Made by a program: the position numbers and the translations under genes
Assembly: GCF_002019735.1 (NCBI RefSeq)
Contig: NZ_KV917378.1
Coordinates: forward strand, 2,382,869 to 2,446,868
Origin: Salipaludibacillus agaradhaerens
GTDB lineage: Bacteria; Bacillota; Bacilli; Bacillales; Salisediminibacteriaceae
Direction: 5' to 3'
Length of the DNA: 64,000 nt
Shown here: positions 5,179 to 47,722 of the stretch, piece after piece
How positions within the stretch are numbered: the first letter of the stretch is position 1
How the letters are laid out: each line of letters begins with the position of its first letter
Notes under the pieces: generated by a model
What the model was told of the DNA's origin: nothing
Databases searched by the model: none
What the model saw: the letters and a program-made list of their open reading frames with translations, nothing else

Positions 5179-5880
5179 ATGAAACATGCAAACATGAATT
5201 GGAACAATGATCATAAAGTGGCAACTTATCGAGAATCCATTCCATTAAAAATCCCCGCCTATCATACATTGCATACGATGATGTCTTCCTTTCTTACAGC
5301 AGGCATTAATGAGAAAGAACCCGGCATTTTAATCGTGGGCGGTGGCGGTGGAAAAGAACTAGATGTTCTGGCAAAACGCCATTCTCATTGGCACTATACG
5401 ATCGTCGATCCTTCAAATCGTATGCTTGAACTGGCTGCCCGTGTTAAAGAACAACTACCTTTCCCGCATTCAGTCACCTTATGTCATGGTGACTTATCAA
5501 CTGTCCCCTATGAGCGGCTTTATTCTGCCATTACTTGCTTACTTGTGGCCCATTTTATTGAAAATGAAAAGAAACCCGCTTTTTTGCAAGACATGTATCG
5601 GCGTTTAAAACCTGGTGGTATGTTAGTCATAACAACGATGAATGACTTGGAGAATCACCCTTCTAGATTAGTGTATGAGAACGCTTGGCTAGATTTTATG
5701 GAGCTGAAGGGTTGCTGCTCGGGACAGTGGAACACGTTCAAATCATCATTTGGCAAAACCACTCATTTAATGGCAAGTGACACATTTGAGCAGTTACTTA
5801 CTACCACAGGTTTTCAACCACCTACACGGTTTTTCAGTTCATTTTTAATTGATGGATGGATAGCATTTAAGGAGGCGTAA
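5179..5880 (+). CDS. Class I SAM-dependent methyltransferase
   Basis: 233 residues with a Rossmann-type SAM site: motif I at about residues 50-62 (ILIVGGGGGKELD), an acidic end of strand 2 (IVDPSNRMLE) and post-I DLSTVPYERLYSAIT. The later LKPGGMLVIT block is typical of small-molecule methyltransferases. AAAGAGGTG precedes the ATG. Three bases separate it from the saccharopine-dehydrogenase-like gene, whose ribosome site AGGAGG sits in this gene's last codons, so they form a two-gene operon. The substrate is unknown; the Fur-like box upstream suggests a role connected with iron or metal limitation, which is inference. Confidence 0.8.
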   Translation: MKHANMNWNNDHKVATYRESIPLKIPAYHTLHTMMSSFLTAGINEKEPGILIVGGGGGKELDVLAKRHSHWHYTIVDPSNRMLELAARVKEQLPFPHSVTLCHGDLSTVPYERLYSAITCLLVAHFIENEKKPAFLQDMYRRLKPGGMLVITTMNDLENHPSRLVYENAWLDFMELKGCCSGQWNTFKSSFGKTTHLMASDTFEQLLTTTGFQPPTRFFSSFLIDGWIAFKEA

Positions 5881-5883
5881 AAT

Positions 5884-7011
5884 ATGAAGTCATCTATTGT
5901 CGTCATCGGTGGGTATGGGCAAACAGGAAGGACTATTTGTCAGGCTTTAAGCGACTACTATCCCGGTAACGTCTATGCAGCTGGCAGAAATAAAAAGAAA
6001 GCAGAGGCTTTTTCATACGAAACGGATAACAAAGTACGGCCATTTTGCTTGGATGTCAATGACATGACGGATTGGGATTGGCTTGATTCAACGAAACTTG
6101 TCATTGTCTGTTTGGACTTACACTCAACTTTATTGGCCGATAAGTGTGCCTCATCTGGCACTCATTACATGGATATCTCTTCGAACGGGATATTATTTAG
6201 CAAACTGAAGGAAAAAGCCCTTCCTCCAACACAATCTACGACGCTGTTAAGTGTTGGCCTAGCCCCAGGACTCACTAATTTACTGGCTCAGCACACCACA
6301 AATCTATTAGCTGACACAGAGCATATAGATATTAGTATTATATTAGGAATGGGAGATACTCATGGTGAGGCAGCCCTTTTATGGACAATGAAGCATTTAG
6401 CTTCCTCTTATCCAACGTTCACCACCTCTGGTCATAAAAAAGTAAGAAGCTTTTCAGGGAGGAAAAAAGTTGATTTTGGCAACACATTAGGTGTCCGCTC
6501 AGTGTATCGTTTCCCCTTTTCTGATCAACAGACATTACCTTGCACCTTAAATGTACCATCTGTCACTACCCGTCTAGGATTTGACTCATCCGTTTTAACG
6601 AACGGATTAGCTGTCATGCGTAACACAGGATTGTTGGGCCTATTAGCACATGAGCGGTTCACCACATATCTTTCTCAGTTCTTAACACGATATAAGAAGG
6701 GATCTGCTCTATTTGCTGTTAAAGTTGAAGCATCTGGGACACTGAATGGTCATCATACGAAACGAAGTGCTCTTGTAATAGGTGAAAATGAATCGCTTAT
6801 AACAGCAAAAGTTGCCGCAGCAGCGGGAAGATTCCTATATGAAGACCTCCTTCCCCCAGGGACGTATCATAGTGACGAACTTTTCTCACTTACTGATACA
6901 GATGATGCATTATTCTTAAAATTGAAAACTGACTCTAGAGAAGAACCTGTCTCATCGATCGTTAAACATGAAAAAAACAGAGACAACTTCTTTTACACGC
7001 TCCTAACTTGA
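5884..7011 (+). CDS. Saccharopine dehydrogenase-like NAD(P)-binding protein
   Basis: 375 residues with an N-terminal NAD(P)-binding Rossmann fold (GGYGQTG at residues 9-15) and a second conserved block SVGLAPGLTNLLA typical of the saccharopine dehydrogenase-like superfamily. Members include lysine-pathway enzymes, carboxynorspermidine dehydrogenase and many uncharacterised oxidoreductases; this length fits the last group. It follows the methyltransferase by three bases with AGGAGG overlapping the previous stop. A methyltransferase plus an opine-like dehydrogenase behind a Fur-like box is reminiscent of small metallophore tailoring, but no nicotianamine-synthase-like gene is present, so I do not assign a product. 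Confidence 0.7.
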   Translation: MKSSIVVIGGYGQTGRTICQALSDYYPGNVYAAGRNKKKAEAFSYETDNKVRPFCLDVNDMTDWDWLDSTKLVIVCLDLHSTLLADKCASSGTHYMDISSNGILFSKLKEKALPPTQSTTLLSVGLAPGLTNLLAQHTTNLLADTEHIDISIILGMGDTHGEAALLWTMKHLASSYPTFTTSGHKKVRSFSGRKKVDFGNTLGVRSVYRFPFSDQQTLPCTLNVPSVTTRLGFDSSVLTNGLAVMRNTGLLGLLAHERFTTYLSQFLTRYKKGSALFAVKVEASGTLNGHHTKRSALVIGENESLITAKVAAAAGRFLYEDLLPPGTYHSDELFSLTDTDDALFLKLKTDSREEPVSSIVKHEKNRDNFFYTLLT

Positions 7012-7099
7012 CAAGTAGAAAGTGGTGCAATCAATTGACGTATTCCCCTTGCCCTTTCATGAAAAAAATGATACATTACATCATTAAGAGGTGATCACC

Positions 7100-7147
7100 A
7101 TGGTTTTTGTGAATCCGTTGGTACAACTTCATCATCATAACTATTAG
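7100..7147 (+). CDS. Candidate histidine leader peptide (15 residues) for hisS attenuation
   Basis: ATG at 7100 preceded by AAGAGGTGATC gives the peptide MVFVNPLVQLHHHNY then TAG. Three consecutive His codons (CAT CAT CAT at 7130-7138) lie just before the stop, followed by a hairpin and a strong intrinsic terminator and then a histidyl-tRNA synthetase gene. This is the layout of classical ribosome-mediated attenuation: scarce charged tRNA-His would stall a ribosome on the His codons and favour readthrough. I saw no T-box consensus (AGGGTGG-ACCGCG) in the region. Confidence 0.7.
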   Translation: MVFVNPLVQLHHHNY

Positions 7148-7182
7148 TCTTGCTAGCGATTTTTAAATCGTTTATAGGAAGA
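7146..7182 (+). promoter_or_regulatory. Hairpin between His leader peptide and terminator
   Basis: Two nested inverted repeats directly after the leader stop: outer AGTCTT/AAGACT and inner GCGATTT/AAATCGT with a three-base loop. It sits where a pause or competing hairpin is expected in an attenuator. Confidence 0.5.
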
Positions 7183-7195
7183 CTATTTATACTGC

Positions 7196-7243
7196 AACCG
7201 CATGTGATAAGTTTAAACAACTTTTATCACGTGCGGTTTTTTT
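7196..7243 (+). terminator. Strong intrinsic terminator (attenuator) upstream of hisS
   Basis: Arms AACCGCATGTGATAA (7196-7210) and TTATCACGTGCGGTT (7224-7238) pair over 15 bases with one G-U pair, followed by a run of seven T. It lies inside the hisS leader, 84 bases before the start codon, so it must be overridden for the synthetase to be expressed. The 5' arm is also partly complementary to the leader peptide's start region (ATCACCATGGTT), which could form an alternative structure. Confidence 0.8.
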
Positions 7244-7293
7244 GTCATAGATAACCGTCCGTAAAACGCCACTGATTGAAGGTTCGTTTTATG
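7243..7293 (-). repeat. Dispersed CGAACCTTC repeat, short form (inverted)
   Basis: Read on the minus strand it begins ATAAAACGAACCTTCAATC, continues AGTGGCGTTTTACGGACGG and ends TTATCTATGACAAA, matching both ends of the family found at ten other sites. It lies between the attenuator and hisS. Confidence 0.6.
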
Positions 7294-7326
7294 TTGATGG
7301 AAAAAATAAAATAGAGGAGAATCAAG

Positions 7327-8619
7327 ATGAAGAAAATGGCTTATCAAAATGTGAAAGGGACACAAGATTATTTACCACAAGCTGAAACAATCAGGCGGAC
7401 AATTCGCCAAACGTTAGAACAGACGTTTATCACGTACGGCTATCAACCGTTAGAAACGCCGATTTTAAATTATACTGATTTACTTGCATCTAAATATGGC
7501 GGAGGAGCTGAAATTTTAAAGGAAATGTATCAATTAAGCGATCAAGGTCAACGGGATTTAGCCTTGCGTTATGATTTAACAATCCCCTTTGCTAAAGTAA
7601 TTGGGTTAAACCCTTCTTTAAAAATGCCATTTAAACGTTATGAAATCGGCAAGGTTTTTCGAGACGGACCAATAAAAACAGGCAGGTTAAGAGAGTTTAC
7701 ACAATGCGATGTGGATATTACGGGCACCTCTTCTATTTTGGCTGAAGCCGAATTAATGCTAATGGCGTTAGATGCTTTTAAAAAGTTAGATTTGAAAGTG
7801 ACGATTCAATATAATAACCGAAAATTATTAACAGGTCTACTCGCTTTTTTGGATACACCATCCGATCTGATAAATGAGACGATTTTGATACTTGATAAAT
7901 TAGAGAAGATAGGTACTGAAGGCGTTATAAGCGAGTTAATGAAAAAGAACTTGCCATTAAATACTGTTCAAAAAATTAAGCGGTTTGTAGATGATTCTCA
8001 CAACACTGACCTGACTTATTTAAAGAATGTCGCAGGGACAAATGAGACTTTCACACAAGGGCTAGAAGAATTAGAGGCCTTATCAACGTATTTAACGTAC
8101 CTTAACGTGAATGACAAGTGTTCATTTAACCCTTTTTTAGCAAGAGGACTAGATATTTATACAGGCACTGTGTATGAAGTCTTTTTAACTGACAGTTCGA
8201 TCACGTCAAGCATTGGGAGCGGTGGGAGATATGATCGTACGATCGGTGGACTTATTGGGGGAGACGACGTTTTTCCTACTGTGGGACTTTCCTTCGGTCT
8301 TGATGTTATTTACACCGCTTTAAAAGGTAGAGGCTCTGATGAGCGCGGCGAATCAGAGTACCTCGTCCTGCCTGTTACAACTTCCACAACTAAAGAAGCT
8401 CTTGCAGTGGCACAATTTTTACGAACGAGAGGTTACCAAGCGAATATTGAGATGAGTGGGCGAAAACTGAATAAAGTGATGGAAAAGGCTAATAAAGACA
8501 ACATCCGTTATGTGGTAGTCATCGGCGAGGATGAGGTGCGACGCGGGGTGATGAACGTGAAAGATATGAGCACCGGAAAAACAGAGTTAAAAGCATTTAA
8601 CTACGCTGCTCCCCTTTAA
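7327..8619 (+). CDS. hisS: Histidyl-tRNA synthetase, archaeal/eukaryal-like paralogue
   Basis: 430-residue class II synthetase that charges tRNA-His. It has GTQDYLP at the start (motif 1 region), motif 2 at residues 111-130 (FRDGPIKTGRLREFTQCDVD), the histidine-site block ARGLDIYTGTVYE and motif 3 (SGGRYDR then SFGLDVIY), plus a full C-terminal anticodon-binding domain, so it is HisS and not the short HisZ paralogue. Motif 2 with GP and QCD resembles archaeal/eukaryal-like enzymes and differs from the usual bacterial QAGR-QFHQFG form. It stands alone, away from the aspS neighbourhood normal for Bacillus hisS. GAGGAGA lies six bases before the ATG. Likely a regulated second copy. Confidence 0.9.
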   Translation: MKKMAYQNVKGTQDYLPQAETIRRTIRQTLEQTFITYGYQPLETPILNYTDLLASKYGGGAEILKEMYQLSDQGQRDLALRYDLTIPFAKVIGLNPSLKMPFKRYEIGKVFRDGPIKTGRLREFTQCDVDITGTSSILAEAELMLMALDAFKKLDLKVTIQYNNRKLLTGLLAFLDTPSDLINETILILDKLEKIGTEGVISELMKKNLPLNTVQKIKRFVDDSHNTDLTYLKNVAGTNETFTQGLEELEALSTYLTYLNVNDKCSFNPFLARGLDIYTGTVYEVFLTDSSITSSIGSGGRYDRTIGGLIGGDDVFPTVGLSFGLDVIYTALKGRGSDERGESEYLVLPVTTSTTKEALAVAQFLRTRGYQANIEMSGRKLNKVMEKANKDNIRYVVVIGEDEVRRGVMNVKDMSTGKTELKAFNYAAPL

Positions 8620-46708: not shown

Positions 46709-46868
46709 TATAAAATGAACCTTCAATCAATGGGCGTTTTCGTTCTTCTCCCACTGATTGGTAGTTGAGTAAATCAGGGCTGCATCCGTTATCTCACCCC
46801 TATATAGATTTATCTCTTCTCTCTATTTTGACACGGCGTTTTATGGACGGTTTACTGTGATTAAAAAA
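46709..46868 (+). repeat. Dispersed CGAACCTTC repeat, long form
   Basis: Best complete copy. After the AACCTTCAATCA start comes a hairpin (ATCAATGGG/CCCACTGAT), GTAGTTGAGTAAATCAGGGC, CATCCGTTATCTC, CTCTTCTCTCTATTTTGAC and the end GGACGGTTTACTGTGAT. Confidence 0.7.
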
Positions 46869-47460: not shown

Positions 47461-47690
47461 AACTGAAGGAGAAAGCACTTTTTCACCCTCTTCTCACTTA
47501 GCTTTAAATACTAAGAAGTTTGGTGAAATTACAAACCACATTTATGGACATTTAATGAGATTTGTTATAAAGATAATTTTATTTAACTTGTGAATGCTAG
47601 AAAAAAAGATATAAATATGACAAGTCGCTGTAACTTTATTAATAGACTTCTTTTACTTGATAGAGTCTATCCTTTTACATACAGTCCTTC

Positions 47691-47722
47691 TATAAAACGA
47701 ACCTTCAATCAGTGGGGGTTTT
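47691..47722 (+). repeat. Dispersed CGAACCTTC repeat, 5' part
   Basis: ATAAAACGAACCTTCAATC followed by AGTGGGGGTTTT; the rest is missing. Confidence 0.55.

Follow-up and report, generated by a model that had tools for sequence, protein, structure and literature searches.

The question raised by this locus is how a bacillus controls a second histidyl-tRNA synthetase (HisRS) gene. Synthetase genes of this bacterial group are commonly under T-box riboswitches, and the gene considered here, hisS2 of Salipaludibacillus agaradhaerens, lies behind a short leader with a run of His codons in the 64,000-nucleotide stretch of DNA analysed in full (the window). The reading that we favour, with a probability of about 0.85, is that the leader is a ribosome-mediated, leader-peptide attenuator of transcription, through which hisS2 would serve as an inducible, spare source of HisRS.

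The hisS2 leader and its genome

Between positions 7087 and 7243 of the window a ribosome site is followed by a 15-codon ORF, then by a hairpin (H1) and, ahead of hisS2, by an intrinsic terminator (T). The features of the region are as follows.

7049..7077, + strand: possible promoter, weak and read by eye (TTGCCC 7049-7054, 17 nt, TACATT 7072-7077; TG 7069-7070)
7087..7094, + strand: leader ribosome site (SD) AGAGGTGA, read from the sequence
7100..7147, + strand: leader ORF MVFVNPLVQLHHHNY, 15 codons, from ATG at 7100 to the stop codon TAG at 7145-7147
7130..7138, + strand: His codons CAT CAT CAT (CATCATCAT), proposed sensor; 15 nt from the first His codon to the base of H1
7145..7185, + strand: hairpin H1, beginning on the stop codon (folding; covariation)
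7186..7195, + strand: linker TTTATACTGC, 10 nt, unpaired in H1 and T (folding, alignment)
7196..7243, + strand: intrinsic terminator T, a 16-bp stem (7196-7238) with a loop of 11 and seven T at 7237-7243
7313..7319, + strand: hisS2 ribosome site AGAGGAG, by eye
7327..8619, + strand: hisS2, second histidyl-tRNA synthetase of the NF009085/PRK12420 type, 430 aa

The initial annotation had recognized the ribosome site, the ORF with CAT CAT CAT, the hairpin and the terminator ahead of hisS, all of which we recover. The leader peptide ends in LHHHNY. The locus combines a leader ORF in which the cognate amino acid of the downstream synthetase is encoded in a run with a predicted intrinsic terminator between that ORF and the gene, two of the marks of a ribosome-mediated attenuator. 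A simple terminator scan did not list T, the loop of which (11) exceeds the limit of that scan (8). When the leader region was folded, as the annotation had proposed, both H1 and T were formed and the minimum free energy was -49.5, compared with -29 +/- 3.7 for 200 shuffles (z -5.6). In the ribosome-site region G11, G14, T15 and G16 are invariant among 38 aligned sequences. A promoter layout resembling that of the window is present at L014 and L015; in a scripted search, scores of at least 10 of 12 were reached by 14 of 101 sequences, and the best pair of the window was no better than those of shuffles. Behind AGGAAGG a further candidate mini-ORF begins at AT(G/T); by eye, neither its start codon nor its frame is kept, and it was discarded.

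That hisS2 encodes a second HisRS, as had been claimed, is confirmed by the match of its product to NF009085 (597.9 bits; cut-off 540), and residues 273 and 297 fall at RGLDIYTGTVYE and GSGGRYD, which we take to be the HisRS signature motifs. The primary hisS of the same genome (L001) scores 511.5 bits with TIGR00442, over the cut-off, and a third hisS-like gene (L003) 213.8 bits, below it; weaker TIGR00442 matches in this genome are other synthetases. We read L003 as hisZ-like, the name hisZ being our own reading. The primary hisS is preceded by a T-box (125 bits with Rfam), which served as the positive control of the T-box search, and upstream of L003 neither a T-box (Rfam) nor, by eye, an HHH leader was found.

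It could be argued that the hisS2 leader is a diverged T-box or some other riboswitch, because T-boxes are frequent at synthetase genes of this group and the primary hisS has one. The annotation had seen no T-box in the leader, and the covariance search bears this out: at gathering level Rfam has no T-box match in the whole 64-kb window, and none is among the nine Rfam matches up to E 10 in 6900-7400. The T-box model RF00230 that recovered the leader of L001 did not match that of hisS2. The leader, moreover, contains a conserved ORF with His or (see below) Gln codons and is apparently too short to hold a T-box stem I, so that we regard a riboswitch as hardly credible. The Rfam family His_leader of gammaproteobacteria (RF00514) shares the His codons, the hairpin and the terminator, precedes another gene, and matches 7123-7244 with 19.9 bits (E 0.64), far short of its gathering score of 49.

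Directly upstream of the leader (5179-7011) lie a methyltransferase gene and a saccharopine-dehydrogenase-like gene, in which we saw no link to hisS2. An interspersed repeat of up to about 180 bp is found at L003:1096-1275, L015:2791-2951 and L044:3752-3963, in the last two between the terminator and hisS2, and recurs in the window at 46709-46766 and 47688-47721, with a remnant, by eye, at 7255-7300.

Spread of the element with hisS2

In the order of the window, of which 397 genomes were sampled, 62 matches to the hisS2 type (NF009085; E <= 1e-100) occur in 61 genomes, 60 of these being over the cut-off, and the leader element is present at 61 of the 62 matches. Among 59 further loci it was found by an ORF script at 55, by a second look at the two Sutcliffiella copies and by the covariance model in one genome (G058, L156), to which the window, L007 and L009 are added; the sole exception is L117 (G234), where hisS2 is without the element. 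The covariance model R1 on its own sees the element at 61 of the 62 matches, a count that is partly by construction, the sequences from which R1 was made belonging to the same order. An ORF with ATG, SD and HHH precedes hisS2 at 53 of the 59 loci and in none of 590 dinucleotide shuffles; for any short ORF with HH the figures are 55 of 59 and 58 of 590. Within the family of the window, 10 of 35 genomes carry an NF009085 match over the cut-off, and all ten, among them the window (L013), have the leader, although in L007 the run is of two His codons only.

A sample overlapping with this one (8 stretches are identical, as are the Sutcliffiella copies) points the same way. Among the best 80 of 89 matches, the loci with Bacillales names (L037-L066, L068 and L069) have the leader in 31 of 32 cases, no leader element being found at L042. 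L044 was counted by means of the covariance model; there, as in L156, the element sits further upstream. Four plasmid copies of hisS2 were found, and the three that were fetched (Lysinibacillus, Planococcus and a record labelled Stenotrophomonas) all have the leader; phage copies were not found at E 1e-40. Since neighbouring genes are hardly held in common (any one at no more than 5 of 33 loci), the leader and hisS2 appear to travel together. The search for HHH leaders near hisS paralogues that the annotation had suggested thus returned relatives that keep both the His codons and the terminator, and its proposal of a His-leader attenuator before a second hisS is supported by comparison, neither a T-box nor a loss of the codons and terminator having come to light.

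In the order of G418 the leader was found at only 5 of 30 loci fetched; the script count there was 11 of 34, of which two (L180 and L181) are spurious TTG ORFs and four are clostridial copies, the rest being the five of 30. Of eight further loci scanned outside the named Bacillales (L073, L074, L076-L078, L081, L097 and L112) four have the leader, and the hisS2 family with its leader extends to Clostridium, Sporomusaceae and small-genome Bacilli.

Several observations were made alongside. The plasmid record labelled Stenotrophomonas rhizophila (L300) carries a bacillar-type hisS2 with an HHH leader and an upstream region much like that of the Lysinibacillus plasmid (L299), and its label may be wrong. 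Five hisS2 copies (L016, L122, L128, L065 and L066) have one internal stop or a match exceeding the gene length, so the gene may not always be intact. Among the best 80 of 89 matches, many of L072-L116 are DPANN archaea with relatives of the NF009085-type HisRS (about 38-46% identity), which suggests an old transfer.

An element before a second bacillar HisRS gene was not without precedent. Naville and Gautheret (2010; PMC2965389) predicted a His leader upstream of bacillar hisS* and hisZ and, in the part of their paper available to us, state that the recent hisS duplication appears specific to bacilli. As in their leader, a short ORF with a His run and a 5' terminator precede, in the window, the paralogue other than the T-box hisS, and so the element would be a new member of the predicted bacillar hisS* leader. 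The annotation had called such control unusual for this group; attenuation by a His leader is indeed supported, but it had already been predicted for a bacillar hisS paralogue in that work (PMC2965389). Neither an alternative structure nor a Gln version is given in section 10 of the same paper (PMC2965389). In the S. agaradhaerens genome the hisZ-like gene differs from the hisZ described there in that we saw, by eye, no HHH leader before it.

A Gln-codon version upstream of glnS

Run over the 397 genomes, R1 gave matches in 78 at E <= 0.05, weak and antisense ones included (for this and the other covariance searches of the large genome set stricter filters were used). Four strong matches are without hisS2. 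Two of these are His leaders, L210:263-378 (116 bits) and L212:274-393 (82 bits), the former followed by a HAD-type hydrolase gene; they are possibly orphans left by gene loss. The other two, L211 and L213, both in the family of the window, contain Gln codons instead and read MMNARLQLQQQN and MKNAHTYMTIQQQQ, respectively, each up to its stop codon. R1, which contained no Gln element, finds four more upstream of glnS in this family, with scores of 30.0-34.3 bits and E values between 6e-6 and 6e-5 in 35 kb. A second model (R2), from which the codons were omitted and into which six of the eight Gln elements had gone, adds those of G006 and G007, its only new finds. The Gln-codon element is therefore present in 8 of the 35 genomes of the family (G002-G008 and G023), at the following loci.

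L211, L213, L249, L251, L253, L255, L297, L298: Gln-codon element before a methyltransferase-glnS operon

In NCBIfam the methyltransferase gene behind all eight matches 23S rRNA cytosine methyltransferases best, though with scores that in every case fall far short of the curated cut-offs. The glnS that follows is over the TIGR00440 cut-off in G002, G023 and G006 (partial proteins); in G007 it reaches 381.6 bits on 267 residues (cut-off 425.8), and in G003, G004, G005 and G008 glnS was assigned by place. The leaders end in QQQN, QQQQ, QQQQI, QQQK or QFQLQR; at L253, L297 and L298 the Gln codons alternate with others (QFQRQ) and the ORF extends into H1. NF009085 has no match over the cut-off in any of these eight genomes, and the glnS of the S. 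agaradhaerens genome (L247) is without a Gln element. On the opposite strand upstream of glnS, c-di-GMP-I riboswitches were noted in two genomes of the genus of the window (L247:1728-1815 and L258:1705-1789). Six weak R2 matches (L291-L296), inspected as candidates for other codon specificities, were judged to be chance.

With Gln codons before the glnS operon and His codons before hisS2, the codons track the synthetase. The swap is short, for His (CAY) and Gln (CAR) codons differ in the third base only, and it provides the best evidence that the run would be read as codons for the cognate tRNA. The Gln form probably derives from the His form and not the reverse, as the His form has spread wider. 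The homologous Gln element before the methyltransferase-glnS operon is new as far as our searches reach: no Gln leader before glnS in bacilli was found in the literature searched, outside which lay most subscription journals and supplements. The available portion of a Shewanella study does assign a 'tRNA synthetase leader' to glnS (PMC2659441).

Structure, ribosome position and termination

In the alignment A2, which comprises 86 distinct sequences, H1 and T covary: 93.1% of cells are paired, 26 of 35 pairs have changed on both sides, and the covariation score is 0.267, compared with 0.126 for shuffled and 0.05-0.10 for slid alignments. A2 was made without eight loci of the alternating type described below, eight duplicates, the window itself (L013) and five loci at which no leader had been found at that stage (L017, L042, L044, L117 and L156); L173 and L174 are represented in it by L065 and L066. 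A further row set, A4, holds 50 of 52 non-redundant rows, L007 and L011 being left out. Inside H1 a G-G mismatch is conserved (G in 95% and 94% of the 86 sequences). In the 5' arm of T, A137 and U138 (A2 columns; 7202-7203 of the window) are invariant in 86 of 86 sequences, and since their 3' partners vary this hints at a second role for the arm.

The His run has three codons in 79 of the 86 sequences, two in six and four in one (a rough count), and the first His codon lies 15 nt from the foot of H1 in 64, 12 in 20 and 13 in two, as measured in alignment columns. This is near the distance from the A site of a ribosome to its front edge, which is about 13 nt, and a ribosome at the first His codon would thus leave H1 mostly free, whereas one at the stop codon would open it. 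When a ribosome was modelled on the leader, formation of the lower H1 stem fell from 0.82 at the first His codon to 0.12 with the ribosome on the third, and to 0.00 once it stood at the stop codon. In the mechanism that we propose, a ribosome supplied with ample His-tRNA would reach the stop codon on the foot of H1, and T would end transcription; when His-tRNA is short the ribosome would pause on the first codon of the His run, with its front edge not quite reaching H1, and the polymerase would pass T.

How the position of the ribosome might be conveyed to T is seen most readily in 15 relatives that have alternating complementary blocks (1 to 5) in place of the common Bacillales layout. These come from Clostridium, Sporomusaceae, other Firmicutes, small-genome Bacilli and one genome of the order of the window (L146), and include two pairs of near-duplicates (L071/L179 and L076/L192). 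Folded without the terminator 3' arm, they tend to adopt 1:2 and 3:4 if the ribosome sits at the first His codon, and 2:3 if it sits at the stop codon. The 5' arm of the terminator then has more upstream pairing at His than at stop in 12 of the 15, the means being 0.71 at His and 0.47 at stop; L067, L081 and L176 do not follow this order, and L070 does so by 0.02 only. Full-length folds contain the terminator in 11 of 15 relatives for a ribosome at His and in 13 of 15 for one at the stop codon. Since the completed leader mostly forms its terminator even at His, the switch would have to depend on the order in which the RNA is made: while the terminator is incomplete, a stalled ribosome would favour 1:2 together with 3:4, the antiterminator, and a ribosome at the stop codon would favour 2:3 and free the terminator. 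It is therefore plausible, from these models, that the alternating type would read through on starvation, the expected sign, and for the Bacillales type we infer the same sign. To the extent of our searches these alternating hairpins, mostly in clostridial or small-genome Bacilli, have not been described before.

The Bacillales type lends itself less easily to such a scheme. The initial annotation had pointed to pairing of the leader start region with the 5' arm of T as a possible antiterminator; in an attenuator of this kind a stalled ribosome would free the leader start for the arm. That pairing does exist in the window (-8.9 kcal/mol, z -1.2), 10 of 38 sequences score below -1 (mean z -0.42), and in a ribosome-blocked partition function of these 38 the start region takes up about 5.5 nt of the 5' arm when the ribosome is at the first His codon, compared with 2.5 when the leader is free and 3.6 at the stop codon. 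It is not, however, conserved. When duplex energies of matched and permuted strand pairs were compared, a test that recovered its positive controls, H1 and T, at z -13, matched leader starts and 5' arms did no better than mismatched ones (z +1.79, p 0.96, n=84), and the registers would differ between species. Over the 86 sequences, moreover, only 18 show more upstream pairing of the 5' arm for a ribosome at His than for one at the stop codon (means 0.20 and 0.32), and in the window the values are 0.50 and 0.64, the wrong sign in both cases. The lack of matched-pair support and the wrong sign of the ribosome model indicate that the leader-start pairing is a property of the window sequence and not of the family, and we consider an attenuator built on it unlikely. 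Other partners of the 5' arm fared similarly in the matched-pair test: no helix is clearly supported with the linker (z +1.5), the H1 3' strand (z +0.3), the leader middle or the His region, nor between the H1 5' strand and the terminator 3' arm, and the nearest to support is the H1 5' strand with the 5' arm (z -1.6, p 0.05). Lower scores were obtained for the H1 5' strand with the linker (z -2.8, p 0.002) and for the leader start with the H1 3' strand (z -2.0, p 0.02), neither of which touches T directly.

The lack of a supported competing helix in the Bacillales type could also be what an ordinary constitutive terminator of a short RNA would leave behind, the His run then having no regulatory role. 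Such a terminator would, however, hardly account for a spacing of 12-15 nt between the first His codon and H1 in 86 of 86 sequences, or for an element that follows one gene family through different neighbourhoods and exchanges His for Gln; we think it improbable. To much the same degree we doubt that the leader encodes a nascent peptide that arrests the ribosome, sensing an inhibitor for example, with the His run as arrest motif and not as a sensor of charging. The residues preceding the run are partly conserved (SQL or QL), and B. subtilis does have ribosome-arrest leaders, such as that of tlrB (PMC6851288). Against an arrest motif, Gln codons take the place of His codons where the gene encodes GlnRS, and L009, albeit a single case, keeps the nucleotides ACAAT before the run in another reading. 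We thus retain the attenuator reading, in which direct action of the arrangement of ribosome, H1 and polymerase is possible in the Bacillales type. More tentatively, the Bacillales element may constitute a separate class of attenuator, with no competing antiterminator helix, a His (CAY) to Gln (CAR) exchange of the sensor at the glnS operon, and a stalled or finished ribosome that would act through H1, the foot of which lies at its front edge, to gate a polymerase paused before the terminator. The absence of a conserved antiterminator helix from the common Bacillales type is likewise new within the reach of our searches.

Leader-peptide attenuation of a synthetase gene is known from the pheM leader of pheST in Escherichia coli, which concerns another amino acid and another phylum. 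Within the phylum of the window, leader-peptide control of transcription reportedly operates at bmrCD of B. subtilis (PMC4191407) and is also said to involve a leucine-rich peptide in Staphylococcus aureus (PMC5794164), with other genes and signals in each case. The tlrB leader of B. subtilis is likewise a leader-peptide attenuator in a Bacillus, and the account of it available to us identifies no overlapping antiterminator either; it differs in that tylosin is sensed through an RYR arrest motif, and a NusG-dependent pause has been shown for it (PMC6851288). The excerpted report on uORFC-8-2 of Rhodobacterales also predicts leader-peptide attenuation by the amino acid of the gene itself, although the gene is cysS, the amino acid Cys and the element an unrelated one of Alphaproteobacteria (PMC8632094). 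Closer at hand, for some Firmicutes Ashniev et al. (2022; PMC9413887) predicted that his operons are under His attenuators. According to the text available, these contain a run of three to five His codons, hairpins for attenuator and terminator, and a predicted alternative antiterminator; they control his biosynthesis operons, however, and 'hisS' occurs 0 times in the main text (PMC9413887). The literature searched, most subscription journals and supplements lying outside it, yielded no experimental study of a hisS leader.

Leader-peptide attenuation is usually taken to require a ribosome closely coupled to the polymerase, and in bacilli this coupling is regarded as loose. Present with a spare synthetase across one order, and in His and Gln versions within one family, the covarying attenuator amounts to a natural codon-swap experiment. 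The His/Gln pair would test directly whether such sensing works in bacilli and offers an exchangeable amino-acid sensor, and the element draws attention to synthetase genes that, in this group, escape T-box control.
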